Positions 42,983-57,275 of a DNA stretch of 57,275 nt are shown here, piece by piece. The position numbers and the translations under genes were made by a program. This DNA comes from Actinomyces succiniciruminis. GTDB taxonomy: Bacteria > Actinomycetota > Actinomycetes > Actinomycetales > Actinomycetaceae. The notes under the pieces are model-generated. The model was given only the letters and a program-made list of their open reading frames with translations. It did not search any database and was not told the origin of the DNA. The stretch lies in the NCBI RefSeq assembly GCF_900002405.1, contig NZ_LK995525.1, positions 17,968 to 75,242 of the forward strand, written 5' to 3'. Within the stretch, counting starts at the first letter, position 1, and every line of letters begins with the position of its first letter.

Positions 42983-44137
42983 ATGCGGGCGGATCTAGTA
43001 GTGGTCGGTTCGGGGCTCTTCGGTGCCACGGTCGCCCAGCGTGCCGCCGAGGAACTGGGCGTGCACGTGGTCGTGGTCGAGTGCCGCGAGCACGTAGGCG
43101 GGAATGCTTACTCCTACCGGGATGCGGACACCGGCATCGAGGTGCACCGCTACGGCTCACACATCTTCCACACCTCCAACGAGCGGGTCTGGGCCTACGC
43201 CAATCGGTTCACCGCCTTCGACGACTATCGACACCACGTCTACGCCAACCATGCCGGCGAGATCTACCCGCTGCCCATCAACCTGGGCACCATCAACCAG
43301 TTCTTCCGCGCGGCCCTCGGACCGGAGCAGGCCCGGGATCTGCTCGCCCAGCACGCCGCCGAAATCACCGGCGAGCCCGCCAACCTGGAGGAGAAGGCCA
43401 TCAGCCTGATCGGGCGGCCCCTGTACGAGGCCTTCATCCGCGGCTATACCGCCAAGCAGTGGCAGATCGACCCCACCGAGTTGGACGCCGCCATCATCAC
43501 CCGCCTGCCGGTGCGCCTGAACTACAACAACCGCTACTTCTCCGACCGCTACGAGGGCATCCCCGTGGGCGGCTACGGTGCCTGGGTCGAGCGGATGCTC
43601 GATCACCCGCGCATCGCAGTGCGGCTGGGGGAGGACTTCCTGGCAGGCGACGGTCCGCTCGGCCGCGACGCCTGTGTGGGGCGGGTTCCGGTGGTCTACA
43701 CCGGCGCCGTGGACCGCTTCTTCGGTCACCGGCTCGGGGCCCTTACCTGGCGCACCCTCGACTTCGAGACCCGCATCCTGCCCACGGGTGATTACCAGGG
43801 CACCGCGGTCATCAACTACCCCGATGCCGAGGTCCCCTACACGCGCGTGCACGAGTTCCGTCACTACCACCCCGAGCGCTTCCATCCCGACGACGCCACC
43901 GTGATCATGCGGGAGTACTCGCGCATGGCCGGCCCCGACGACGAGCCCTACTACCCGGTGGGGACGCCGACCGACCGCGAACGGCTGAGCCGCTACCAGC
44001 AGTCGGCGGCCGAACTGGAGGCGCAGCGGGTCGTCTTCGGCGGCCGCCTGGGCTCCTACCAGTATCTGGACATGGACCGCACCATCGCGGCCGCTCTGGA
44101 CTGCTTCGAGCGCCGAGTGCGTCCGTGGTTCGGCTGA
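42983..44137 (+). CDS. glf: UDP-galactopyranose mutase
   Basis: Glf converts UDP-galactopyranose to UDP-galactofuranose, the donor for galactofuranose in cell-wall or exopolysaccharide chains. The 384-aa flavoprotein begins with the FAD-binding VVVGSGLFGATVAQRAAEE, and keeps HRYGSHIFHTSNERVW, the substrate region RYFSDRYEGIPVGGYGAW and YLDMDRTI. GGAGGG lies 8 bases before the ATG. The 268-base gap to the LytTR regulator gene should hold both promoters; no clear boxes were identified. Confidence 0.95.
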   Translation: MRADLVVVGSGLFGATVAQRAAEELGVHVVVVECREHVGGNAYSYRDADTGIEVHRYGSHIFHTSNERVWAYANRFTAFDDYRHHVYANHAGEIYPLPINLGTINQFFRAALGPEQARDLLAQHAAEITGEPANLEEKAISLIGRPLYEAFIRGYTAKQWQIDPTELDAAIITRLPVRLNYNNRYFSDRYEGIPVGGYGAWVERMLDHPRIAVRLGEDFLAGDGPLGRDACVGRVPVVYTGAVDRFFGHRLGALTWRTLDFETRILPTGDYQGTAVINYPDAEVPYTRVHEFRHYHPERFHPDDATVIMREYSRMAGPDDEPYYPVGTPTDRERLSRYQQSAAELEAQRVVFGGRLGSYQYLDMDRTIAAALDCFERRVRPWFG

Positions 44138-44282
44138 GTACCCGCCGCACACCACCGCATGTCACATTGACCCGACGCGGGAGGCGGTGATGGTCCGTGG
44201 GAGACTAGACGGCGTTTAAACCGGCGGCACCAGCCGACCGGGCATCCACACTGACCGCAGGAAGAGCCAGGAACCGATTCAC

Positions 44283-46154
<1,872 letters not shown>

Positions 46155-46201
46155 CCGTCGGCGGCAATGCAGTAAGAACACCAGCGGAAGGAGACGGTCC
46201 C

Positions 46202-47110
46202 GTGCCGCAGCAGCATCCACCCCGCTCGCATGCCATCCACGCCCGCGTGCGCTCCTACTCGCGGGCCGGGGGTCGCCTGACCGACTCACAGGCTCGCGCC
46301 TTGGAGCGTTACGGGGACCGCTACGTCATCGACGTGCCCCGCGCTGACGCGATCCGCACCGTCGATCCGGCCTTCCGCCTGGACCCGGCCGCCGCCTTCG
46401 GCCATGTCGGCCAGCTGCGTCCACTGATCGTGGAGGTGGGCTCCGGGGCGGGGGAGGTGATTCTCGCGCATGCCGCCGCCCATCCGGGGGTGGATTACCT
46501 GGCGGTGGAGGCGTGGGAGACGGCGATCGCCAAGCTGGTGGCCGGTGCCGCCAAGGCCGGTCTGCGCAATCTGCGGGTGGTGCCCGCCGACGCGGCCCAA
46601 CTGCTGGCCACTGCCCTGCCGGTGGGCTGCGCCAGCGAGGTTTGGGTGTTCTTCCCGGACCCATGGCGCAAGCCCAGGCACCGCAAGCGGCGCCTGGTCA
46701 CGGCCGCCTTCGCCGACTCCGTGGCCCGGGTACTGCGACCCGGCGGGGTGTGGCGGCTGGCCACCGACTGGGCGGACTACGCCTGGCAGATGCGCGACGT
46801 GCTGGAGGCCGCCTCCGCCCTGCCCGAGGGCCTGGAGGCGGACTGCACCGGCCCCTACTTCCGTTTTCCCGACGCCGGGGCCCGCCCGGACCTGGGCGCC
46901 GACACCGCCGAGGAGGGCAGCCTGGGCAACGGCTTCGACCCCGGCTCCCCGGCCGGCGTGCGTGGCGGCTGGTCGCCGCGCTATCCGGGCCGGGTGCTGA
47001 CCCGATTTGAGGAGAAGGGCATACGTGCCGGCCGCACCATCCGTGACCTGACCGCGGTTCGCACCGGCGAGATATGGGTACCCCTCCGGCGTGAGGCGGT
47101 GGCGCTTTGA
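46202..47110 (+). CDS. trmB: tRNA (guanine-N7-)-methyltransferase
   Basis: TrmB methylates G46 of tRNA with S-adenosylmethionine. The 302-aa product has the SAM loop VEVGSGAGEVILAHA, YLAVEAWETAIAKL, and the hallmark VFFPDPWRKPRHRKRRLV. It is longer than the typical 210-240 residues, with an N-terminal tail and an insert near residues 225-260 rich in Gly, Pro and Asp. GTG with GGAAGGAGA upstream is the start. Its stop overlaps the hemW TTG start. Confidence 0.92.
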   Translation: MPQQHPPRSHAIHARVRSYSRAGGRLTDSQARALERYGDRYVIDVPRADAIRTVDPAFRLDPAAAFGHVGQLRPLIVEVGSGAGEVILAHAAAHPGVDYLAVEAWETAIAKLVAGAAKAGLRNLRVVPADAAQLLATALPVGCASEVWVFFPDPWRKPRHRKRRLVTAAFADSVARVLRPGGVWRLATDWADYAWQMRDVLEAASALPEGLEADCTGPYFRFPDAGARPDLGADTAEEGSLGNGFDPGSPAGVRGGWSPRYPGRVLTRFEEKGIRAGRTIRDLTAVRTGEIWVPLRREAVAL

Positions 47111-48381
47111 GCCCTGCCCAGCCCGACGGCGCACCCCTGCCCGGCGCGGCCGATTTGCCGGCGCAGGTCCGGGCGGACACCGGGGGAGAGACGGGTCGGG
47201 GACGCCCCTTCTCGGTGTACCTGCACGTGCCCTACTGCCGGGTGCGCTGCGGCTACTGCGACTTCAACACCTACACGAACCTGTCCATGGGCGGCGGGGC
47301 CTCGGCAGGGGATTACGTGGACACACTCGCCGGCGAGCTGCGTCTGGCCCACACCGCGATGGAGCGGGTCGGCCTGCCGCAGCGGGCGGCACGAACCGTG
47401 TTCGTCGGCGGCGGCACCCCCACCATGCTGCCGGCCGGGGACCTGGCCCGCATGCTGACCTTGGTGCGGGACACCTGCGGCCTGGCCGACGGCGCGGAGG
47501 TGACCACGGAGGCCAATCCGGAGACCGTGGACGAGCGCTACCTGGCGGCCCTGGCGCAGGCTGGCTTCACCCGGGTGTCCTTCGGCATGCAGTCCGCGGT
47601 GCCGCAGGTGCTGCGCATCCTGGACCGGGCCCACACCCCCGAGCGGGTGCTGCAGGTGGTGTCATGGGCGCGGCGGGCCGGACTGGCCACGAGCCTGGAC
47701 CTGATCTACGGCACGCCGGGCGAGTCCCTGGACGACTGGCGCCGCTCGCTGGAGGCGGCGGTGGAGATCGGCCCGGACCATTTGAGCGCCTACGCCCTGG
47801 TGATCGAGGAGGGCACGCGCATGTGGTCCCAGGTGCGCCGCGGCGAATTGCCCCTGCCTACCGACGACGACGAGGCGGCCAAGTACGAGTTGGCCGATGC
47901 GGTGCTGGGCCGTGCCGGCTACGCGTGGTACGAGATCTCCAACTGGGCGCGGCCCGGGCATGAGTGCGTGCACAACCAGGCCTACTGGCGCGACTGGGAC
48001 TGGTGGGGCGCCGGCCCGGGGGCGCACAGCCACCTGGGGGACGTGCGCATGTGGAACGCCAAGCATCCGGTGGCCTGGGCCGGACAGGTGACGGCCGGGA
48101 GACTGCCCGTCGCGGGGCATGAGGTCGTCGATGCCGACTCGCGAGAACTGGAGCGGGTAATGCTCGGCATTCGCATGCGGGAGGGTCTGGAGTTGCGGAG
48201 TCTGACGCGGCCGGGGGAGGCCGCGACGGCGTCGGGAACCCCGCGGCGGCTCGTGCCGGTGGTGGGAGGTTTCGTCGCACAGGGCCTGCTCGAGGGTGCC
48301 GCGGCCATGGCCGGACGCGCCGTGCTGACCCTGCGGGGACGGCTCATGGCGGACACGGTCACCCGCGAGCTCGTCGACTGA
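47107..48381 (+). CDS. hemW: Radical SAM heme chaperone HemW
   Basis: HemW belongs to the coproporphyrinogen oxidase-like radical SAM group and delivers heme; it is not the oxidase itself. The 424-aa protein carries the cluster-binding Cys44, Cys48 and Cys51 (CRVRCGYC), FVGGGTPTML, the EANPETV strand and FGMQSAVPQVL. The HemW C-terminal domain follows HNQAYWRDWDWWG. The TTG start at 47107 shares bases with the trmB stop; a downstream start at about 47167 is possible, since the first 30 residues are low complexity. Confidence 0.9.
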   Translation: MSPAQPDGAPLPGAADLPAQVRADTGGETGRGRPFSVYLHVPYCRVRCGYCDFNTYTNLSMGGGASAGDYVDTLAGELRLAHTAMERVGLPQRAARTVFVGGGTPTMLPAGDLARMLTLVRDTCGLADGAEVTTEANPETVDERYLAALAQAGFTRVSFGMQSAVPQVLRILDRAHTPERVLQVVSWARRAGLATSLDLIYGTPGESLDDWRRSLEAAVEIGPDHLSAYALVIEEGTRMWSQVRRGELPLPTDDDEAAKYELADAVLGRAGYAWYEISNWARPGHECVHNQAYWRDWDWWGAGPGAHSHLGDVRMWNAKHPVAWAGQVTAGRLPVAGHEVVDADSRELERVMLGIRMREGLELRSLTRPGEAATASGTPRRLVPVVGGFVAQGLLEGAAAMAGRAVLTLRGRLMADTVTRELVD

Positions 48382-48394
48382 CGTGTTACTGGGA

Positions 48395-49096
48395 CTATCG
48401 GGTGGTGTAGGGCTGGAGGTCAACGGTGCCGGAGCAGGTGGCGATGACGGTTTCGTCATGGCTGGCCACGATGATCGTCTTCCCTCGATCCCGCAGTTCC
48501 TTCAGTAGATCGAGCACTGCGTCCCGGTTGGTGCTGTCCAGAGAGCCGGTGGGTTCGTCTGCCAGGATGATGTCGCAGGGCTTGAGTAGCAGCCGCGCGA
48601 TAGCGGTGCGCTGCTGCTCGCCCCCGGAAAGGGTGTAGACCTTGCGCGATTCGAAGCCGGGAAGGCCCACTGCGGCCAGAGCCTCGGATATGAGGTCGGC
48701 CTTGGCCCGGCCCTCGTTGTCGGCGTAGGTGAGGGCTAGGCGCAGATTGCTCTCGACCGACTCATGGTCGATCAGTGCGTAGTTCTGAAACAAGTAGCCG
48801 AGGTGGTAGCGGATGAAACGGTTGGCGGCGCGGGTGCGGGGCCGAGGCGAAGGGGAGCCATTCAGGAGGACGGCACCGCTTCCGGGTGATTCCAGCAGAC
48901 CGAGGATGTTGAGTAGTGTCGACTTGCCCGACCCCGATGGGCCGGTGACGGCGAACATCTGCCCGGCGCCGACGGTGAACGAGATGTCGTTCAGGACCCG
49001 GTGCTTGCCATAGGCCTTGTCGAGGTTGCGAACATCGACGGCCACGCTGTTCTGCGCGCCGCTCGGCGCGGTCTGAGTGCTTGTTACGGATGACAT
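48395..49096 (-). CDS. ABC transporter ATP-binding protein, bacteriocin-export type
   Basis: The 233-aa ATPase belongs to the MacB/LolD-like group, with Walker A GPSGSGKST, LGYLFQNYALIDHESVESNL, the signature LSGGEQQRTAIARLLL and Walker B DIILADEPTGSLD. The GYLFQN(Y/F)ALI-E-VE-NL wording recalls ATPases annotated with lactococcin-972-like bacteriocin export. It is last in a minus-strand operon headed by a 45-aa peptide gene. It follows the second membrane protein by one base. Codon use is less GC-biased than in hemW next door. Confidence 0.88.
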   Translation of the reverse strand: MSSVTSTQTAPSGAQNSVAVDVRNLDKAYGKHRVLNDISFTVGAGQMFAVTGPSGSGKSTLLNILGLLESPGSGAVLLNGSPSPRPRTRAANRFIRYHLGYLFQNYALIDHESVESNLRLALTYADNEGRAKADLISEALAAVGLPGFESRKVYTLSGGEQQRTAIARLLLKPCDIILADEPTGSLDSTNRDAVLDLLKELRDRGKTIIVASHDETVIATCSGTVDLQPYTTR

Positions 49097-49097
49097 C

Positions 49098-50402
49098 TCA
49101 CAGTTCCTTCAATCGTCTCGTCAGGCTTACCCGCTCGGTGGCCAGCGCGGTGAGGGCTCCGATCCCGGCCTCAATCGCCGCGGCGGCGCCTAAGATGGCC
49201 GTCACCAGCAGGAGTCCCTGAGCACCGAGCGCGCCAAAGGTGTACTGCAACGGGTGAAGGTACGGCAGCGGAAGACCGAGAGACTTGAGTGCTCCCAGAA
49301 CGGTCGCGAATACGAGGGCGACTAACCAGCTGCATCCTGACACGCGGAACAGTCCGGAGTAAGTCCGGGGCAACGATGCGCCGTGCAGCCTGTGAACGGC
49401 AATCGCGCGGTACTGCGAGTTGAAGTAGATGACTGTTGCGGAGGTGCCGAGCAGAACCACCAGTACGAACAGTGAGGAACCCGTCGTCACAGCGTCCCAG
49501 AACATCTCGCGCTCACCGAGCGCGAGCTCGAAGCGCTGGGCGTCACTCGTGGTGACCAGGTGGGTGAAATTGTCGTCAAGGCTGAGCTCCTGGAGGGTGG
49601 GGAGCAGTCTCTCGTATGTGGACTCCGGATCCCCATCGGTAAAGATCTTGAGAGCGGTGTCGGGATCGCCGGTAATCGAGTTCAGCCTGTCGCCGGCGAG
49701 GCTGTTGGAAGGCGTCATGATCTCGATGATGGGGTCGCGTACCGTGTTCCCCGATTCGGGGGAGATCTTGGAGTTGAACGTGAACACGTCCTGTCCGGGT
49801 GCGGTCCAGACAATGATGACGTCCTGTTCGTGTAGATCCTCCGGCACGGGTAGGCCCATGCGCTCATCGGCCTGAATAACGCCTTCTACTTCGGGGGTCC
49901 CGTTGCGAGACACATAGTAGGTCCGGCGGATGTGCTCCTCCTGGCTTTTGAGAGTTGAGGGGGCGGCGACGATCCAGGAGTCCTCGGAGGGGTCGATTTC
50001 TAATGGTTGTCCGTCCTCTGCGTATACCGGGTAGCGTGCCAAGTAGTTCAGATTCACGGTCAGTGACTGCGTCATCGGGTCGTCGGGCTGTGGGTAATCT
50101 GGCTCGTAGTTGAACGATTCTATGTACAACGCTCCTGCCTGATCCACCATGGGATACAGGTCGCGCGCTACGGTCACTTCGGTGGTGTAATCACCGGAAT
50201 CGATATCCTGCTCGTTGTCGCCCACATAATAGGGGAAGAGCACTCCGTAATCATCTGTGTCTCCCCAAGCGGACAGGTGCTGGCGCTCGTCACGCGAGTC
50301 GAGAATCGACGCGGACGCCTGGGCGATGACAATAATCAGCATCGTGGTTATCAGTGTTTTTACCGCTAATGACAGTAAAAGCGGGGTTGAATGGGGTGAC
50401 AT
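49098..50402 (-). CDS. FtsX-like membrane protein of the putative bacteriocin locus (large half)
   Basis: The 434-aa protein has one N-terminal membrane segment (about residues 7-31), an external domain of about 280 residues rich in Asp, Glu, Tyr and Pro, and three C-terminal segments (about 310-332, 356-378 and 390-418). This one-plus-three arrangement is that of FtsX/MacB permeases. It ends in the basic tail RVSLTRRLKEL. It and the neighbouring 332-aa protein look like two halves of the 650-residue bacteriocin-associated immunity membrane proteins, a relation inferred from topology and context rather than clear motif matches. Confidence 0.7.
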   Translation of the reverse strand: MSPHSTPLLLSLAVKTLITTMLIIVIAQASASILDSRDERQHLSAWGDTDDYGVLFPYYVGDNEQDIDSGDYTTEVTVARDLYPMVDQAGALYIESFNYEPDYPQPDDPMTQSLTVNLNYLARYPVYAEDGQPLEIDPSEDSWIVAAPSTLKSQEEHIRRTYYVSRNGTPEVEGVIQADERMGLPVPEDLHEQDVIIVWTAPGQDVFTFNSKISPESGNTVRDPIIEIMTPSNSLAGDRLNSITGDPDTALKIFTDGDPESTYERLLPTLQELSLDDNFTHLVTTSDAQRFELALGEREMFWDAVTTGSSLFVLVVLLGTSATVIYFNSQYRAIAVHRLHGASLPRTYSGLFRVSGCSWLVALVFATVLGALKSLGLPLPYLHPLQYTFGALGAQGLLLVTAILGAAAAIEAGIGALTALATERVSLTRRLKEL

Positions 50403-50452
50403 CGGTTCTCTCTGAGGGTGTGCTTATATTCTTCCGGGTGCGGGGTGGTGTG

Positions 50453-51451
50453 TTAGAGGCGCCCTTTAACGAGATCTGACACCTTGAACCTGCTTATCGT
50501 CGCCATGCCGACGCCGTAGGTGACCAGCAGAACGGCGGCGGATGCTAACATGTATCGCAGAAACATGGTGTGAACCAGAATTCCACTCATCTCGGGAACT
50601 GTTAACGCGAGAACAATGGTGACGGCGAGTCCCGCCCCGAGTGTTATTAGTGTGGGTCTACCGGTGGTGGTGTACCAAATACGATTGTTGGGATAGCCGT
50701 GCAACGATAGTACTCCGAGTTGCCTGCCCGCGCGTGTCACCGTGGCGGGGATCAGCGCGGCGGCGATCAGTGTCAATAGGTAGGGCGCGTACAAGAAGAA
50801 CCTGGATGCAGTCGTTCGTAGCTTGGCGCTGGCGATTTCGGACGGATCCACCGGGTTCAAGTCGGCGGGTTTGTACTCCTCTCCGCTCATGTCTGTGAGT
50901 GCACCGGCAATGAGCTGAAGGAACTCGTCCCGAGCATCTCGCGTAGGAGCCTCGACGGTGTAAGTGCCCTCGGCTGGCAGCCTGTTATAGGCGGTCTCGA
51001 GAGGCTCGACGCTGAGGTCGTATCGCCCCGCTACAACATTCGGCACGCCCACCACTCCGGGGTTGGTCGGTTCTATGGTGGTGGCGGTCTCGCCGTGCCG
51101 CAGGCCGGATGCGGAGGGCCAGTTGCCACGGCTCAGCTCGATGATGTCGAACAGTTGCGTGTCTCGGCCGCCCAAGTAAACATAGTAGTGGATATGCCTG
51201 CGATCGCGCCCGGAGGAATCGATCGATACTCTCAGGACGTTGACTCCGGACTCCGCTGCGGCTGTAGTAAGTGTTTCGAGTGCGTCGTCGGGCTCGGCGA
51301 GGTTGCGAGCTGCGGGCCAATTAAAGCGTGTGCCCAGCTGCTCCGCGGCGTGCAAGTGTTGCTGCTCCTGATTGTGTGCGTAGTCGACTGCGGTCGATAT
51401 CGGCACTAAGGCCAATATGACAGTCAGGAGGATGTGCAAAGACGCTCTCAT
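50453..51451 (-). CDS. FtsX-like membrane protein of the putative bacteriocin locus (small half)
   Basis: The 332-aa protein has an N-terminal membrane segment (about residues 4-22), an external domain of about 200 residues, and three C-terminal segments with ILVHTMFLRYMLASAAVLLVTYGVG last and the ending FKVSDLVKGRL. The ATG at 51451 is chosen; a TTG four codons earlier has no better ribosome site. A 50-base gap separates it from the large half. It lies behind a hairpin that follows the peptide gene, so it may be expressed at a lower level. Possible roles are peptide export, immunity or both. Confidence 0.68.
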   Translation of the reverse strand: MRASLHILLTVILALVPISTAVDYAHNQEQQHLHAAEQLGTRFNWPAARNLAEPDDALETLTTAAAESGVNVLRVSIDSSGRDRRHIHYYVYLGGRDTQLFDIIELSRGNWPSASGLRHGETATTIEPTNPGVVGVPNVVAGRYDLSVEPLETAYNRLPAEGTYTVEAPTRDARDEFLQLIAGALTDMSGEEYKPADLNPVDPSEIASAKLRTTASRFFLYAPYLLTLIAAALIPATVTRAGRQLGVLSLHGYPNNRIWYTTTGRPTLITLGAGLAVTIVLALTVPEMSGILVHTMFLRYMLASAAVLLVTYGVGMATISRFKVSDLVKGRL

Positions 51452-51505
51452 GGTTCTTGTCAAATGCTGTGTTGTATTGTGTTCTCCGTGCTGGCATGGA
51501 GTTGG

Positions 51506-51542
51506 CCCGGCGGCCGTGGTAGTGCATTCGTCGACCGCCGGG
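51506..51542 (-). terminator. Attenuating hairpin after the 45-aa peptide gene
   Basis: CCCGGCGG and CCGCCGGG pair perfectly around a 21-base loop, 24 bases beyond the peptide stop and about 55 bases before the first membrane gene. There is no U tract, so partial read-through is expected. Such a hairpin often lets a bacteriocin gene be expressed far above its export genes. Confidence 0.6.
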
Positions 51543-51565
51543 CGGCTCCGTTGGCGACCTGTCTG

Positions 51566-51703
51566 TCAGTATGTGTAGCAGGTCGGCTTGGTGTTGCTGG
51601 AGTTGACTGAAGCCAGTGCCGTTTTTCCGGCATCTACGGTGCTTGTTCTGGTCGTGTTCCCCATTTTGGCGGTGGCGCTGGTGCGTGTTGGCCCGGTGCG
51701 CAT
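51566..51703 (-). CDS. Candidate 45-aa exported peptide (bacteriocin-like)
   Basis: A 45-codon frame begins at ATG 51703, with TGAGGAG 6 bases upstream, and ends at TGA. The peptide is polar and basic, rich in Thr and Ser (about 18 of 45), without a hydrophobic signal. It has a single Cys at position 42 in the tail NTKPTCYTY. It sits first in an operon with two FtsX-like proteins and an export-type ABC ATPase, under a near-consensus promoter. I know no named family. It might be a bacteriocin, a modified peptide precursor or a signalling peptide. The antisense frame is hydrophobic but lacks start signals. Confidence 0.65.
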   Translation of the reverse strand: MRTGPTRTSATAKMGNTTRTSTVDAGKTALASVNSSNTKPTCYTY

Positions 51704-51783
51704 TGTTGCTCCTCAGGAATCTTACTTCGTGGCTGATTCAGGGTGTGCTCGATCCATTCGTGGAACACGTCGAGGCATGCATG

Positions 51784-51823
51784 AGCGTAGACATGCCGGA
51801 TGTGGTTGTCAACACAATAGTGT
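51784..51823 (-). promoter_or_regulatory. Promoter and possible operator of the peptide operon
   Basis: On the minus strand TTGACA (51812-51807), a 17-base spacer and TACGCT (51789-51784) form a near-consensus housekeeping promoter. Transcription would start near 51777, giving a leader of about 74 bases. A dyad ACAC-TATT-GTGT (51823-51812) touches the -35 box and could bind a regulator; no regulator gene is adjacent. Confidence 0.75.
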
Positions 51824-51890
51824 GGTGAGTGACATGTTACTCGCGTTGTGTGTCGCCTCGTATCGCTTGACGCACCCTTGGAGAAGGCGC

Positions 51891-52031
51891 GTGGACACTG
51901 ACACGTCGTTCCTCGAGGGCGATGTCGTGTGGATCGACCTCTCGCCGGTCGTCGGTGGGGAGCGGAGCGGCAGACGGCCGATCGCTACTGGAGCACCTTG
52001 TGATCCGCCAGTCGTAGCGGCGGACGCTTGA
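51891..52031 (+). pseudogene. Truncated MazF/PemK toxin remnant
   Basis: A 46-codon frame starts at GTG 51891, with GGAGAAGG upstream, and encodes GDVVWIDLSPVVGGERSGRRP, the first strand and loop of MazF toxins, then runs into unrelated residues and stops. MazF proteins are about 110 residues, so at least half is missing, and the catalytic second half is gone. No antitoxin gene is present. It lies beside the peptide operon and is probably a decayed mobile remnant. Confidence 0.65.
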
Positions 52032-52105
52032 CGCCTCCGCCGGCGTGGCGGCCTCCACAGTATTTCGGCGGGACATACAAGGTGTCGATTTGGCATCCTG
52101 GAGTC

Positions 52106-52873
52106 ATGAGCACAGGTATGCCCAGTTACGGAGCACCCCAGAACAACGGATATGGAAACACCGGCCAGGGATACGGCTATGGCGCGTCGCAGCCTGGCGC
52201 CTCCGGGCCGTACGGTTCCATGCCCCCGGTTCAGCCCACCCTCACGATTGGTGACGGCCTGTCCTGGGCGTGGTCCCGCATCACCGACAACCCCGTGGTC
52301 CTGCTGGTCGGCTTCGGCATCTGGACGATCCTCACCGGCCTCGGTGCGCAGGCGAGCTACACGGTCGACGGCGTCGAGCACACCTACGGCCTGGGAATCC
52401 CCGGCGGCAACATCATCTCCCTGGCCGCCATGCTGATCGGGCCCATCGCCATGGCGCATGTGGGGCTGCTGACATCCTCCGGTCGCAAGGCGCGCTTCGC
52501 CGACTTCTTCACCTTCCCGAACTTCCTGCAGGGCTTCCTTGCCATGCTCCTCTCGGGCCTGGCCACCGTGATCGGCTCCATCTTCCTGATCGTCCCCGGC
52601 ATCATCCTGTACTACCTGTTCACCTTCGTCAGGTACGCGGCCGTCGAGTACCACCTGAACGCGATCGCCGCCATGCGCCACTCGATGCGCCTACTGTCGG
52701 CCAACGTCGGCGTGCTGCTGCCTTTCGCATTGATCGGTTTCCTCCTGCTCGTCGCCGGAACCGCCACCGTCATCGGTTGGATCGTCACCGTTCCCCTGGT
52801 GGCCCTGATGACCACCTACGCATACGTGCGCGTCCAGGGACGGGACGTGGCCCGCTACCCGAGCCAGGGCTGA
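52106..52873 (+). CDS. Membrane protein with Gly/Tyr-rich N-terminus
   Basis: The 255-aa protein starts with a Gly, Tyr, Gln and Pro-rich cytoplasmic tail of about 45 residues, then six hydrophobic segments between about residues 60 and 245. The last four surround FLIVPGIILYYLFTFVRYAAVEYHLNAIAAMRHSMRL, a pattern common in uncharacterised actinobacterial DUF membrane proteins related to the glycerophosphodiesterase membrane domain. GGAG lies 4 bases before the ATG. It stands alone. Function unknown. Confidence 0.75.
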   Translation: MSTGMPSYGAPQNNGYGNTGQGYGYGASQPGASGPYGSMPPVQPTLTIGDGLSWAWSRITDNPVVLLVGFGIWTILTGLGAQASYTVDGVEHTYGLGIPGGNIISLAAMLIGPIAMAHVGLLTSSGRKARFADFFTFPNFLQGFLAMLLSGLATVIGSIFLIVPGIILYYLFTFVRYAAVEYHLNAIAAMRHSMRLLSANVGVLLPFALIGFLLLVAGTATVIGWIVTVPLVALMTTYAYVRVQGRDVARYPSQG

Positions 52874-53068
52874 CCCGCGTCGACGACGGTGGGCGGCGAC
52901 GTCGTCGCCCCTCACCGGCGTCGGAGCCCGACGTGCTTCCGGTCACCTTGTGCCCGGGACACGCCGATGTCTCGCGATATGGGACGGATGTCGTCATAGG
53001 GTGAAGCTAGCGTCGTCGCATCTTTGATGGGGCGACGAGCACGCCTGCCCCGAACTGAGGAGTCTCAC

Positions 53069-54472
53069 GTGGAGTTGCAGTGGTGGTCCATACTGCCCTT
53101 CGTCGTCATGCTGGCATCGATCGCGGTCCTGCCGCTCGTGCCGGCGACGTCCCATTGGTGGGAGAAGAACTCCCACCAACTGCTGGTCGCCCTGGTCCTG
53201 GGACTGCCCGTCGCGGTCTGGATGCTGGTGGCCATTGGCTGGGAGCCCGTATTCGCCTCCGTGGTGGAGTACATCCAGTTCATCTCCCTGCTTTTGGCGC
53301 TGTTCGTCGTCTCCGGTGGCATCTTCCTGAAGGGTGACATTCAGGCGACCCCGCGCAACAACACCATCTTCCTGGCGATAGGCGCGCTGCTGGCCAGCTT
53401 CGTCGGCACGACCGGCGCCGCCATGCTGCTGATCCGCCCGCTGCTGAACACCAACCGCGAGCGCGAGTACCGCGTCCACACCGTCCTGTTCACCATCTTC
53501 ATGGTTGCCAACTGCGGCGGCCTGCTGACCCCGCTTGGTGACCCGCCGCTGTTCCTCGGCTTCCTGCGCGGCGTCCCCTTCACCTGGACCTTCAGCCTCG
53601 CCGTCGAGTGGCTGTTCGTCAACGCCATGCTGCTGGCCAGCTACTTCGCCCTGGACTCCTGGTACTACTCGCAGGAGCCCGCCGCCGACATCCTGGCCGA
53701 CAAGACGGACATCGAGCCCCTCGGCCTGCGCGGCGCCAATAACCTGATCTGGTTCGTGGTCATCATCGCCGCCGTCGCCTTCGCCCCCTCCATCGACGCC
53801 GAGGCCATAGAGGAGGGGCACGCCACGCTTATGAACTGGATTCCAGTGCGAGAGATGATCATGCTCGCCGCGGCCGCCGCCTCCTTCAAGTTCGGCGACA
53901 AGCGCGCCCGTTTCGAGGATAACCAGTTCGAGTGGGGGCCGATTGCCGAGGTGGCCGCGCTGTTCATCGGCATCTTCCTGACCATGATTCCGGCCCTGCG
54001 CTACCTGGATGAAGTCGCCGGCAGCCTGCCGCTGAACGAGATCACCTTCTTCGTGTTCACCGGCGGCCTGTCCTCCCTACTGGACAACGCCCCCACCTAC
54101 GCCACCTTCTTCGAGATGGCCGGTCAGATCCCTCACCCCGGCGGGGCCACGGTTGCCGGCGTGCCAGAGTTGTACCTGCGCTCCATCTCGCTGGGCGCGG
54201 TCCTGTGCGGCGCCCTGACCTACATCGGCAACGGCCCGAACTTCATGGTCAAGTCCGTGGCGGAGGCGCGCGACGTCGAGATGCCGTCCTTCGGCGGCTA
54301 TATCGGCCGCTCCTTCATGTACCTGGTGCCCGTGCTGGCCGCCATGGTCCTGCTGTTCATCGCCAACCCGCTGTGGGCCAAGCTCCTCGGCGTCGTGCTG
54401 GTAGTCGTGCTGCTGGCCAACAATGTCCGGCTGCTGCGCTCCAGCCGCCGCCTGGCGCTGGCGGACGCCTGA
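53069..54472 (+). CDS. NhaD-like sodium/proton antiporter (citrate-transporter superfamily)
   Basis: The 467-aa membrane protein has about twelve segments and NhaD/CitMHS family motifs: SGGIFLKGDIQATPRNNT, ASFVGTTGAAMLLIRPLL, NCGGLLTPLGDPPLFLGFLRG, GGLSSLLDNAPTYATFFE and YIGNGPNFMVKSVAE. Such proteins usually exchange Na+ or Li+ for protons, which suggests a role in pH and salt balance; substrate specificity was not established. GTG at 53069 has GAGGAG 7 bases upstream. The 195-base gap before it shows no obvious promoter boxes. A perfect bidirectional terminator follows. Confidence 0.9.
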   Translation: MELQWWSILPFVVMLASIAVLPLVPATSHWWEKNSHQLLVALVLGLPVAVWMLVAIGWEPVFASVVEYIQFISLLLALFVVSGGIFLKGDIQATPRNNTIFLAIGALLASFVGTTGAAMLLIRPLLNTNREREYRVHTVLFTIFMVANCGGLLTPLGDPPLFLGFLRGVPFTWTFSLAVEWLFVNAMLLASYFALDSWYYSQEPAADILADKTDIEPLGLRGANNLIWFVVIIAAVAFAPSIDAEAIEEGHATLMNWIPVREMIMLAAAAASFKFGDKRARFEDNQFEWGPIAEVAALFIGIFLTMIPALRYLDEVAGSLPLNEITFFVFTGGLSSLLDNAPTYATFFEMAGQIPHPGGATVAGVPELYLRSISLGAVLCGALTYIGNGPNFMVKSVAEARDVEMPSFGGYIGRSFMYLVPVLAAMVLLFIANPLWAKLLGVVLVVVLLANNVRLLRSSRRLALADA

Positions 54473-54504
54473 CGACGGCGCTCCCCGCCGCCGATACGAG
54501 CGGA

Positions 54505-54540
54505 CCGGGGCCCGGACACCCGCAGGTGTCCGGGCCCCGG
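54505..54540. terminator. Bidirectional terminator
   Basis: A 16-base perfect GC-rich stem with a CGCA loop lies between the converging antiporter and tannase-like genes. No T run is present on either side, but the stem is very stable and suits both directions. Confidence 0.85.
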
Positions 54541-54553
54541 TGTGCCTATCGGG

Positions 54554-56464
54554 TCAGGAGGTGGCCCGCTCGGTGACCCAGGCGATGAAGTTCTCCTCGC
54601 CGGTGCCGGTCAACTCGGCCATGGTGTGCCCCTGACCCCAGACGGTCGCGAAGTCCACCGCCTGGCCGGCCGCCTGCAGCGCCAGTGCCAGGTTCACCTC
54701 CACCGTGCTGGCCGTGTCGCCCTGGGTGATGCCGGTGCGGATGCGCCAGGAGGGCGCCACCGTCGACGTGCCGGCACCCTCGTAGGCGGTGGATAGGAAG
54801 TACATGGGGTTGTACATGTGCTCGCGGGTGAGCACGTCGACGCCTAGCGCGTCGGTCTGCACAAAGTCCGAGTCGTACTCGGAAGAGCCGTACTCGTCGG
54901 ACCAGTCGGTCAGGGAGGCGTAGGCGTCCTGGTTGGCGTCGACCACGTCGCGGGAGAGCTTCGAGAAGTGCATCGCCGTCTGCCCGACCCCGAGGACCGT
55001 GTTCTCCGTCTGACCGCGGTCGACGCCGTCGAGGGCGCCGACGTCCTTGGTCGCCGCCTTCTGACTGGCGACGAAGCCCTCCAGGCCCGTGATGGTCGCG
55101 GTATTGCTCGAGGGGTCGTAGGAGACCCACTCCACATCCTGGTTCAAGGCGGCGATGTAGTCGTCCACCGTCTCATAGGTGACCGACTCGGAGGAGTCTT
55201 CGGAGGATCCTCCGGGCGCGCCATCTGTGCTGCCGCCATCGGTCGGGGCGCCGTCGGGGGCCTCAGCATCGCCGGGGGCGCCGGAGGGTAGCCCAGGGGC
55301 TTCGCCACCCGCCCCGTCCGGGCCGCCCTCGCCGTCGCCGGGCGCACCGGCTCCGCCCTGGGCCTCCATGCCGGCCATCTCGGTGGAGTTGGGCGTGTAG
55401 GGGAACTCGGTGGCGGCCAAGAAGTCGTTCAAGGACTGCTCGACCACCGCGACCATGTGGTTGTAGTAGGTGCCGGCCAGGTACTGCCCGTCCGCGGACT
55501 CCTCAAGGGTAAGGGCATTGCCGTCGGCGTCGACCAGCCCCAGGCCGTTGAGGTGGCTGGCGTAGGCGGCGGCCAGATCCTGGGAGTATGCCCGCGTCCA
55601 GGTGCCCTCCGCACGGGTGCCGGTGGTGGCGAACTGGCCCATGTTCCACTCGTAGGCGGCGTTGGCGGCGTCCAGGCTGGTGATCGGGCACCAGCACATG
55701 GCCCCCGCGATTGCGTCCGACAGTGCCTTGCCGTCGGCGTCCGTGGTGGCGGCGCCGAGCGCCTCCAGGTAGGGGGTGTACAGCGCGGAGTCGCCGGAGG
55801 CCCCCATCACCGCGGACTGGGCGCCGCCGCCGGAGTGGCCGAACACGAAGATCTGCTCCGGGTCGCCGGGTAGGGCGGAGGCGTTGTAGCGCAGGTAGCG
55901 GACGGCGGCCTTCAGATCGGTCACGCCCCAGGGCGCATTGCCGGGGGCCGCGTCGGTGGTGGAGTCCTTACCGCGCAATCCCGCCTGCACGTAGACGAAG
56001 CCGGCCTCCATGTAGGCCGCGACCGTGTCGTAGGAGTACTCGCTGGGAGGCTGCTGGGCCGCGTAGCCGGGGGTGTTGACCGGCAGCACGATTGGCGCCG
56101 TCGCCGCCGTCCATTCGCCGACCGCGCCGTCGCCGGCAATCTCGGCGGTGAAGGTGCCGTCGCCGTTGTCGATGGCGGACATGTAGGCGCCGGGCACGAA
56201 GACGCCCAGGGTCTCGTAGCTGCTGTCCTGTGGGGAGGCGACGTAGGTCAGGCCCAGCTGGTAGTACACGTCGCCGTCGGCGTCGTAGCTCCATGCCGCC
56301 GAGTCGAGAGCCAGCGCGGTGCTGGTGGTGGGGGCGGCCGAGGCCGACTCGCCCGTGGCGCCGCCAGCGCCGCCGGAGTCGTTGGAACAGGCGGCCAGGC
56401 CCGCGGCCCCGAGCAGTGCGGCCACCGGCACCGCATGCATGACGGCACGTCGAGAGATATTCAT
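54554..56464 (-). CDS. Tannase-family alpha/beta-hydrolase lipoprotein
   Basis: The 636-aa precursor has a lipoprotein signal with lipobox LAAC (Cys26). It has the tannase architecture: YETLGVFVPGAYM, AAYMEAGFVYVQAGLRGKDS, LKAAVRYLRYNASALPGDPEQIFVFGHSGGG with nucleophile Ser211, PSWRIRTGITQGDTA, and a C-terminal His613 in WGQGHTMAE. It may cleave gallate esters or related phenolic esters outside the cell. A Gly/Pro/Ala/Asp/Ser-rich disordered insert of about 65 residues (about 365-430) interrupts the lid domain. AAGGAA precedes the ATG. Confidence 0.82.
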   Translation of the reverse strand: MNISRRAVMHAVPVAALLGAAGLAACSNDSGGAGGATGESASAAPTTSTALALDSAAWSYDADGDVYYQLGLTYVASPQDSSYETLGVFVPGAYMSAIDNGDGTFTAEIAGDGAVGEWTAATAPIVLPVNTPGYAAQQPPSEYSYDTVAAYMEAGFVYVQAGLRGKDSTTDAAPGNAPWGVTDLKAAVRYLRYNASALPGDPEQIFVFGHSGGGAQSAVMGASGDSALYTPYLEALGAATTDADGKALSDAIAGAMCWCPITSLDAANAAYEWNMGQFATTGTRAEGTWTRAYSQDLAAAYASHLNGLGLVDADGNALTLEESADGQYLAGTYYNHMVAVVEQSLNDFLAATEFPYTPNSTEMAGMEAQGGAGAPGDGEGGPDGAGGEAPGLPSGAPGDAEAPDGAPTDGGSTDGAPGGSSEDSSESVTYETVDDYIAALNQDVEWVSYDPSSNTATITGLEGFVASQKAATKDVGALDGVDRGQTENTVLGVGQTAMHFSKLSRDVVDANQDAYASLTDWSDEYGSSEYDSDFVQTDALGVDVLTREHMYNPMYFLSTAYEGAGTSTVAPSWRIRTGITQGDTASTVEVNLALALQAAGQAVDFATVWGQGHTMAELTGTGEENFIAWVTERATS

Positions 56465-56573
56465 CAGCGGATTCCTTTACGTTGGCATCAGGGATACGCA
56501 CATCATGCAACCCGGGCAGTCTGGGCATAAGCCGGGAACGACGCTGTGCGCCGCGTGTGAGAACGGTGAACCA

Positions 56574-57275
56574 CTAGCGGGTGCCGGGGGCGGTCACGAA
56601 GTCGATCAACTCTTCCATGCGGCCCAGCAGACTCGGCTCCAGATCCTTGTAGGAGCGCACCGTCGCCAGAATCCGCTGCCAGCCGCGGGCGATATCCGCC
56701 TGGTCGGCATGCGGCCAGCCCAGTGCCTCCAGGGTGCCGTGCTTGATGTCGGTGCCGCGGGGAATCTCCGGCCAAGCCTGCAGACCCACCCGCTCGGGCC
56801 GCACCGCCTGCCACACATCCACATACGGGTGCCCCAGGATCAGCACGTTCTCGCCGCCGGGCATGGCCCGCACCTGCTCGGCTATGCGCGACTCCTTCGA
56901 GCCGGGCACCAGGTGGTCCACGAGCACTCCCGCCCGCCGCTGAGACGAGGGGCCGAAGGCGGCCATGACCTCCTCGAGGTTGTCGACGCCGTCCAGCATG
57001 AGCACCACCACGCCCTCATGGCGCAGGTCATCACCCCACACCTTCTCCACCAGCTCGGCGTCGTGCTTGCCCTCCACCCAGATGCGCGAGGCCCGCGCCA
57101 CCCGGGCCCGCTCGCCCTCGACGGCGTAGGAGCCCGAGGCGGTCAGCCTGCGTCCGCCGGCGCTGACCGGACCGGCGGGGGGACGCCTGCGCGGGGCCGG
57201 CGGGTCCACGATCACGGGCCGGCCCTCCAGCCAGAAGCCCGGCCCGAGTGGGAAGGCGCGCTGCACGCCCCGCCT
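56574..57275 (-). CDS. DUF3097 family protein (runs off right edge)
   Basis: The frame is open to the window edge and gives 230 or more residues with the DUF3097 landmarks: RIWVEGKHDAELVEKVWGDDLR, VVVLMLDGVDNLEEVM, VDHLVPGSKESRIAEQVR, ILGHPYVDVWQAVRP and WPEIPRGTDIKHGTLEALGWP. The VEGKHDAELVEKV region resembles the Toprim fold, so a nucleic-acid role is possible but not shown. This family is usually next to hemW in actinobacteria; here 8 kb of other genes intervene. Confidence 0.85.
   Translation of the reverse strand, partial: RRGVQRAFPLGPGFWLEGRPVIVDPPAPRRRPPAGPVSAGGRRLTASGSYAVEGERARVARASRIWVEGKHDAELVEKVWGDDLRHEGVVVLMLDGVDNLEEVMAAFGPSSQRRAGVLVDHLVPGSKESRIAEQVRAMPGGENVLILGHPYVDVWQAVRPERVGLQAWPEIPRGTDIKHGTLEALGWPHADQADIARGWQRILATVRSYKDLEPSLLGRMEELIDFVTAPGTR

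Follow-up and report, generated by a model that had tools for sequence, protein, structure and literature searches.

In pneumococci, the bacteriocin gene is missing from most of the partial streptococcin loci, in which the immunity and/or transporter genes persist, an arrangement that may amount to a 'cheater' phenotype (PMC6120550), and 25% of these bacteria have lost the functional scb bacteriocin gene through a naturally occurring deletion (PMC11796350); the orf2 and orf3 that accompany the gene of lactococcin 972 (Lcn972) are regarded as putative immunity genes (PMC4055356), all as stated in the excerpted text of the three papers. Here we analyze a locus of Actinomyces succiniciruminis, contained in a stretch of 57,275 nucleotides (contig NZ_LK995525.1, positions 17,968 to 75,242; hereafter, the window), in which a frame of 45 codons (51566-51703, minus strand) precedes the genes of two FtsX-like permeases and one ATP-binding-cassette (ABC) ATPase. 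This frame is probably a deletion remnant of an Lcn972-type bacteriocin gene, whose presumed immunity transporter was kept. In the literature on Lcn972 and Actinomyces, no such locus was found in titles or abstract openings.

Likeness of the 45-codon frame to the Lcn972 family

A preliminary description of the locus had presented the frame as encoding a Thr/Ser-rich peptide of 45 residues, with a single Cys and no hydrophobic signal, that was unlike the lactococcin-972-type peptides and headed a putative bacteriocin export operon. The frame is indeed present, starting at an ATG at 51703 and containing 12 Thr and a lone Cys as residue 42, and the hydrophobic signal core, which we judged by 12-residue hydropathy, is missing, the best value being 0.63 versus 2.83 in the counterpart from Actinomyces ruminis and 2.28 in the peptide of a distant genus locus (G009). 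The alleged dissimilarity to Lcn972, by contrast, did not hold. The sole Pfam family matched by the peptide was Lactococcin_972 (PF09683; expectation value, E, 0.0056; 17.7 bits), with residues 9-43 lying on positions 28-59 of the 62 in the profile; and because that match alone is weak, as indicated by a control with shuffled peptides (see below), we built two profiles of our own from domains found with PF09683, one with 6 domains from the genus and the other with 25 from the class, those 6 included. Against the class-wide profile the peptide scored 17.1 bits, which value was reached by none of 20000 shuffles; the match, which began at model position 26, placed the last ~30 residues on the C-terminal half of this domain. 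When that profile was run over the 1173 stop-to-stop frames of at least 20 codons in the window, the frame of the peptide ranked first, at 17.1 versus 10.0 bits for the next.

The result was the same with profiles from which either the genus or a group that we labeled Streptomyces-like had been removed, since none of 10000 shuffles did as well as the full peptide. The likeness resides in the C-terminal portion: residues 13-45 alone were matched by none of 10000 shuffles with each of three profiles, and residues 17-45 alone by 0, 0, and 3 of 10000, while for residues 1-20 alone between 60 and 330 of 10000 shuffles were as good. Residues ~13-45, making up the last two thirds of the peptide, thus resemble the C-terminal half of an Lcn972 domain, residues ~1-12 would be the start of a signal peptide, and the GGxW-containing N-terminal half of the mature domain is missing from the frame.

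The orthologous locus of A. ruminis CtC72 (L005) contains syntenic counterparts of all four genes, with 85% identity in the transporter. There, a frame of 77 codons begins at the same ATG behind the same ribosome site; it encodes an evident hydrophobic signal and closes with VGGGTWN, and a second frame ends in NSKDTSLRCNVYWDTY. Residues 2-24 of the window's peptide match the start of the first of these frames (0 of 5000 shuffles as good), and for its final 12 residues the counterpart is the end of the second frame (6 of 5000); at the DNA level, 106 of the 135 aligned bases of the peptide frame are identical, with 151 gap positions. Both ends of the frame are similar to Lcn972-type genes. The expectation of a peptide conserved beside homologous transporters was consequently borne out in part, in that an orthologous gene exists in A. 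ruminis, but there it encodes a signal peptide and bears other deletions; and of two more distant transporter homologues, one (G009) has a signal-bearing peptide of 93 residues in front, but for the other (G582) none was identified from the frame list alone.

The A. ruminis frames, taken one by one, did not behave as Lcn972 with the class-wide profile (-4.7 and 1.1 bits), and in single alignments of them to Lcn972 domains 31 to 752 of 1000 shuffles did as well; these alignments formed part of a set of 18 comparisons, of the peptide and the two frames with six Lcn972 domains, in which the shuffles as good ranged from 31 to 933 of 1000. An Lcn972 character of those frames is suggested by the adjacent VGGGTW and GTNSK motifs, as recognized by eye. 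The A. ruminis peptide frame had no match at E 1 in the protein collection. In that locus housekeeping genes are also frame-broken, lepA being in four pieces and hemW in two. The assembly probably carries indels, so that its pseudogene-like frames are not to be trusted; and since hemW and lepA are broken too, the break in the peptide frame is uninformative and the orthologue can be called neither intact nor broken.

That the frame were open by mere chance downstream of the transporter promoter, with no relation to bacteriocins, is very improbable. The base composition at its three codon positions (0.35, 0.70, and 0.70) differs from that of the neighboring genes, and frames of 45 codons are common, with 138 open reading frames of at least 30 residues overlapping positions 44000-57275, so that the length alone is unremarkable; yet the ATG, the ribosome site, and the first residues are common to A. 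ruminis, and the Lcn972 profile score beats those of all the shuffles and of all the other frames of the window. By these sequence features the frame appears to stand above chance.

We find it unlikely, too, that the product is a functional short peptide, namely a bacteriocin or signal derived from Lcn972 by shortening, which the neighboring ABC complex would export or sense. The frame is open, has a good ribosome site and a conserved start region, and joins A. ruminis-like N- and C-termini in one frame; moreover, in a collection of 5.8 billion proteins its own cluster holds 2 member sequences on 4 contigs. That cluster, however, was the only one found, with zero other homologues; the signal core is missing and only half a domain is left, whereas Lcn972-like peptides are thought to use the Sec pathway (PMC11796350, excerpted text). 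A new family of leaderless or Cys-containing peptides was rejected for that same absence of homologues together with the Lcn972 signal. A search of the PDB by sequence gave nothing useful.

As to other members of the family, the genome of the window contained no Lcn972 domain detectable with PF09683 (E 0.01) or TIGR01653 (E 0.05). Seven of 49 genomes of the genus (L010-L016) hold an Lcn972 domain over the PF09683 cut-off, which domain lies in six of them inside a long precursor frame (150-171 codons), and these seven gave zero TIGR01654 matches at E 0.001. Another genome (G343; L069, L083, and L084) has three tandem Lcn972 domains in ~0.9 kb and, on another of its contigs, a further two lying near each other.

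The transporter genes and their arrival

Downstream of the peptide frame and on the same strand lie permease 1 (50453-51463; 336 residues from a TTG, with an ATG at 51451 that may be the true start), permease 2 (49098-50402; 434 residues), and the ABC ATPase (48395-49096), which series reproduces the order of the Lcn972 loci—bacteriocin, permease, ATPase—with the permease in two pieces. The two FtsX-like proteins and the bacteriocin-type ATPase of the preliminary description were accordingly confirmed. The ATPase matched TIGR03608 ('putative bacteriocin export ABC transporter') with 250.6 bits, under the curated cut-off of 254.85, and permease 2 matched TIGR01654 ('bacteriocin-associated integral membrane protein') with 138.9 bits for a cut-off of 189.35, over positions 294-641 of 681 of the profile only; although below the cut-offs, these were the best NCBIfam models for the two proteins, and the genes are of the Lcn972 immunity/transport type.

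Permease 1 gave nothing above noise in the family searches and was recognized only via P0013, a fused protein of 749 residues. Permease 1 aligns to residues 5-267 of P0013 (28% identity, E 6e-17), and residues 335-747 of the same protein align with permease 2 (35% identity); P0013 scored 164.9 bits with TIGR01654, likewise under the cut-off. The window therefore holds a permease of the TIGR01654 kind split across two genes, the first for the N-terminal and the second for the C-terminal, MacB/FtsX-like half. Among the proteins found with permease 2—in a search that scored the 8000 candidates with the most shared words and excluded proteins above 1.75 times the length of the query—11 of 12 were half-length and one was fused. 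A structural model of permease 2 (predicted local distance difference test, 70) retrieved with Foldseek chains of MacB-like proteins, YtrF, LolCDE, and HrtBA, among others, with E down to 2.4e-7 and template-modeling (TM) scores of about 0.2-0.3, the match at E 2.4e-7 being a non-canonical ABC transporter of Streptococcus pneumoniae with the low TM score of 0.29; the fold class of the MacB/FtsX-type (type VII) ABC transporters, whose permeases have four helices and a large external domain, is likely for this model.

The ratios of nonsynonymous to synonymous substitution (dN/dS) between the window and A. ruminis, obtained with our own Nei–Gojobori script, were 0.17 for permease 2, 0.14 for the ATPase, and 0.43 and 0.19 for two parts of permease 1, and ranged from 0.14 to 0.27 in three neighboring genes. 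Purifying selection keeps the transporter.

The operon has a G+C content of 0.60 versus 0.69 in the window. A match to permease 2 was present in 2 of 59 relatives examined, the genome of the window counted; of the 213 genomes belonging to the taxonomic family, three gave an alignment to the permease 2 family, in one case a weak one (a fused 785-codon frame); and a class-wide search of 394 genomes matched the window's own genome alone. In a comparison of 30 loci around the neighbor gene 52028, nine had hemW in the flank and lacked the operon genes, which were found at the window's own locus only, the A. ruminis operon falling outside its 1.5-kb flank. Since the junction from hemW to 52028 exists elsewhere without the operon, the latter probably arrived there later. 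In a relative (L028, 2595-3425, minus strand), a frame of 276 codons, unlike the operon proteins at E 1e-6, lies between hemW and a 52028-type gene, and the junction may thus take different inserts. Carriage by viruses was rejected, for 106 pattern matches in viral contigs included zero relatives, as was carriage by plasmids, with one match, which covered about half the length at 24% identity.

The ribosome site, the promoter, and the intergenic hairpin

The ribosome binding site TGAGGAG was located, as claimed, at 51709-51715 (minus strand), and GAGGAGCAACAATG is the same in A. ruminis. The promoter TTGACA-17-TACGCT of the preliminary description stands as to position and spacing (51784-51812, minus strand; TTGACA at 51812-51807 and TACGCT at 51789-51784), but is modest, its -10 box matching TATAAT at 3 of 6 positions, and was absent from the list of a consensus scan that demanded at least 4 of 6 per hexamer and 9 of 12 overall. 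Similarly, the dyad said to lie on the -35 box does overlap it, though as an imperfect one (TGTGTTGACAACCACA) that differs in A. ruminis at one inner base. In the gap-free alignment the A. ruminis promoter reads TTGACG-17-TAAGCT, and the promoter plus 5' leader DNA (51704-51823, minus strand) is identical at 101 of 120 bases (84%) to positions 4441-4560 of L005. The DNA of this region is conserved, and the promoter element largely so.

Between the peptide frame and permease 1, the intergenic stretch 51464-51565 (minus strand) contains a G+C-rich hairpin of 12 bp without a U-run. The frame might then act as a leader, in which translation of the Thr-rich codons before the hairpin would tune expression of the transporter, a reading that we hold to be unlikely. 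The Thr-rich frame does stand directly upstream of a strong hairpin (fold z -2.5, with none of 200 shuffles equally stable) and of the transporter start, and the promoter and leader DNA are conserved; but the A. ruminis counterpart of the stretch folds in an ordinary manner (z -0.36), the hairpin has no U-run, and Rfam at gathering thresholds produced zero matches in 48000-53000. On the basis of that last result a known structured RNA ahead of the transporter was rejected.

On the opposite strand of the window, positions 51918-51980 (plus) encode a fragment of 21 residues resembling the N-terminus of PemK/MazF toxins (PF02452, E 0.0066, 17.1 bits versus a cut-off of 23.1); the remainder of the domain is missing in that frame, which may perhaps be another remnant.

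Proposed history and comparison with described loci

We propose that an Lcn972-type locus arrived, that its bacteriocin gene lost the middle by deletion, and that the transporter stayed. The deletion would have placed the beginning of the old gene, with its ribosome site, its start codon, and the first signal-peptide residues, directly before the C-terminal half of the domain. With the signal core and the GGxW half gone, Sec would not export the product, nor would the latter fold into the Lcn972 beta-sandwich, from which we infer that the bacteriocin function was lost. The genes farther downstream probably still depend on the conserved promoter for their transcription. The two half-permeases and the single ATPase would make up an ABC complex of the FtsX/MacB type, which complex would most likely guard the cell from the Lcn972-like bacteriocins of its neighbors, so that the locus would be one of retained immunity, or a 'cheater'. 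That the operon exports a new peptide was not supported; a role in immunity suits the transporter genes better than one in export, and the peptide looks like a truncated relative of Lcn972. Because the literature treats such genes as putative immunity genes, we likewise assign that role as a putative one.

Several results weigh against this proposal. The PF09683 score of 17.7 bits lies below the curated cut-off of 22, and in the control one of 10 shuffled peptides matched an unrelated Pfam family at E 0.0038; NCBIfam, TIGR01653 included, gave no match to the peptide; the genus-only profile, with its six close members, yielded a nonsignificant 4.8 bits (58 of 2000 shuffles as good); and in the pairwise alignments of the peptide with the six Lcn972 domains of the genus, 67 to 933 of 1000 shuffles did as well. 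The frame is open and has its two ends in one frame in the window, which selection could explain, while in A. ruminis those ends are in different frames, in a locus where other genes are frame-broken too; the peptide cluster persists, moreover, in its 2 member sequences on 4 contigs, and one part of permease 1 reached the dN/dS of 0.43. With respect to the immunity step, in pneumococci without the bacteriocin gene the locus is not self-expressed and producers inhibit them, and for no Lcn972 locus have the B and C products been verified, according to the excerpted text of PMC11796350.

There is also a slight chance that the shortened Thr-rich half-domain peptide is still translated and has acquired a different function within its own immunity locus, be it as a leader peptide, as a decoy, or as a cytosolic partner of the split permease; if so, a toxin gene would have become a regulator of its immunity genes. 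With the deletion of a bacteriocin gene as the preferred explanation, a tempting reading is corrected, in that an odd short peptide before a bacteriocin transporter may be the stump of a known family and not a new one, and an actinobacterial retained Lcn972-type locus, with its permease split in two, would join the partial loci of pneumococci.

Compared with lcn972-orf2-orf3 of Lactococcus lactis pBL1, the window has an ATPase and a permease that match the NCBIfam models of that group, and a peptide whose C-terminal half matches the Lcn972 domain, but it lacks a signal peptide, has half of the bacteriocin domain, and carries the permease in two genes. The A. ruminis locus shares the four syntenic genes, a similar promoter, and an identical ribosome site, and differs in that its peptide gene keeps the signal and the VGGGTW motif and shows other deletions and a frame break, within an assembly that breaks other genes as well. 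The distant G009 locus (L009) exhibits the same order of peptide, permease, and ATPase, but with one fused permease (a 741-codon frame) and the 93-residue peptide with a signal; the latter is weakly Lcn972-like (TIGR01653 at E 0.011 on the protein and 10.0 bits with the class-wide profile), whereas PF09683 did not match it and a search of the genome at E 0.05 was negative. Finally, the partial streptococcin loci of S. pneumoniae (scbBC without scbA) resemble the window in having kept the immunity/transporter genes upon loss of the Lcn972-like gene (PMC11796350, PMC6120550), whereas there, as far as the excerpted text of these reports goes, part of the promoter region was lost as well, and the window, in another phylum, keeps both the promoter and a short open remnant.
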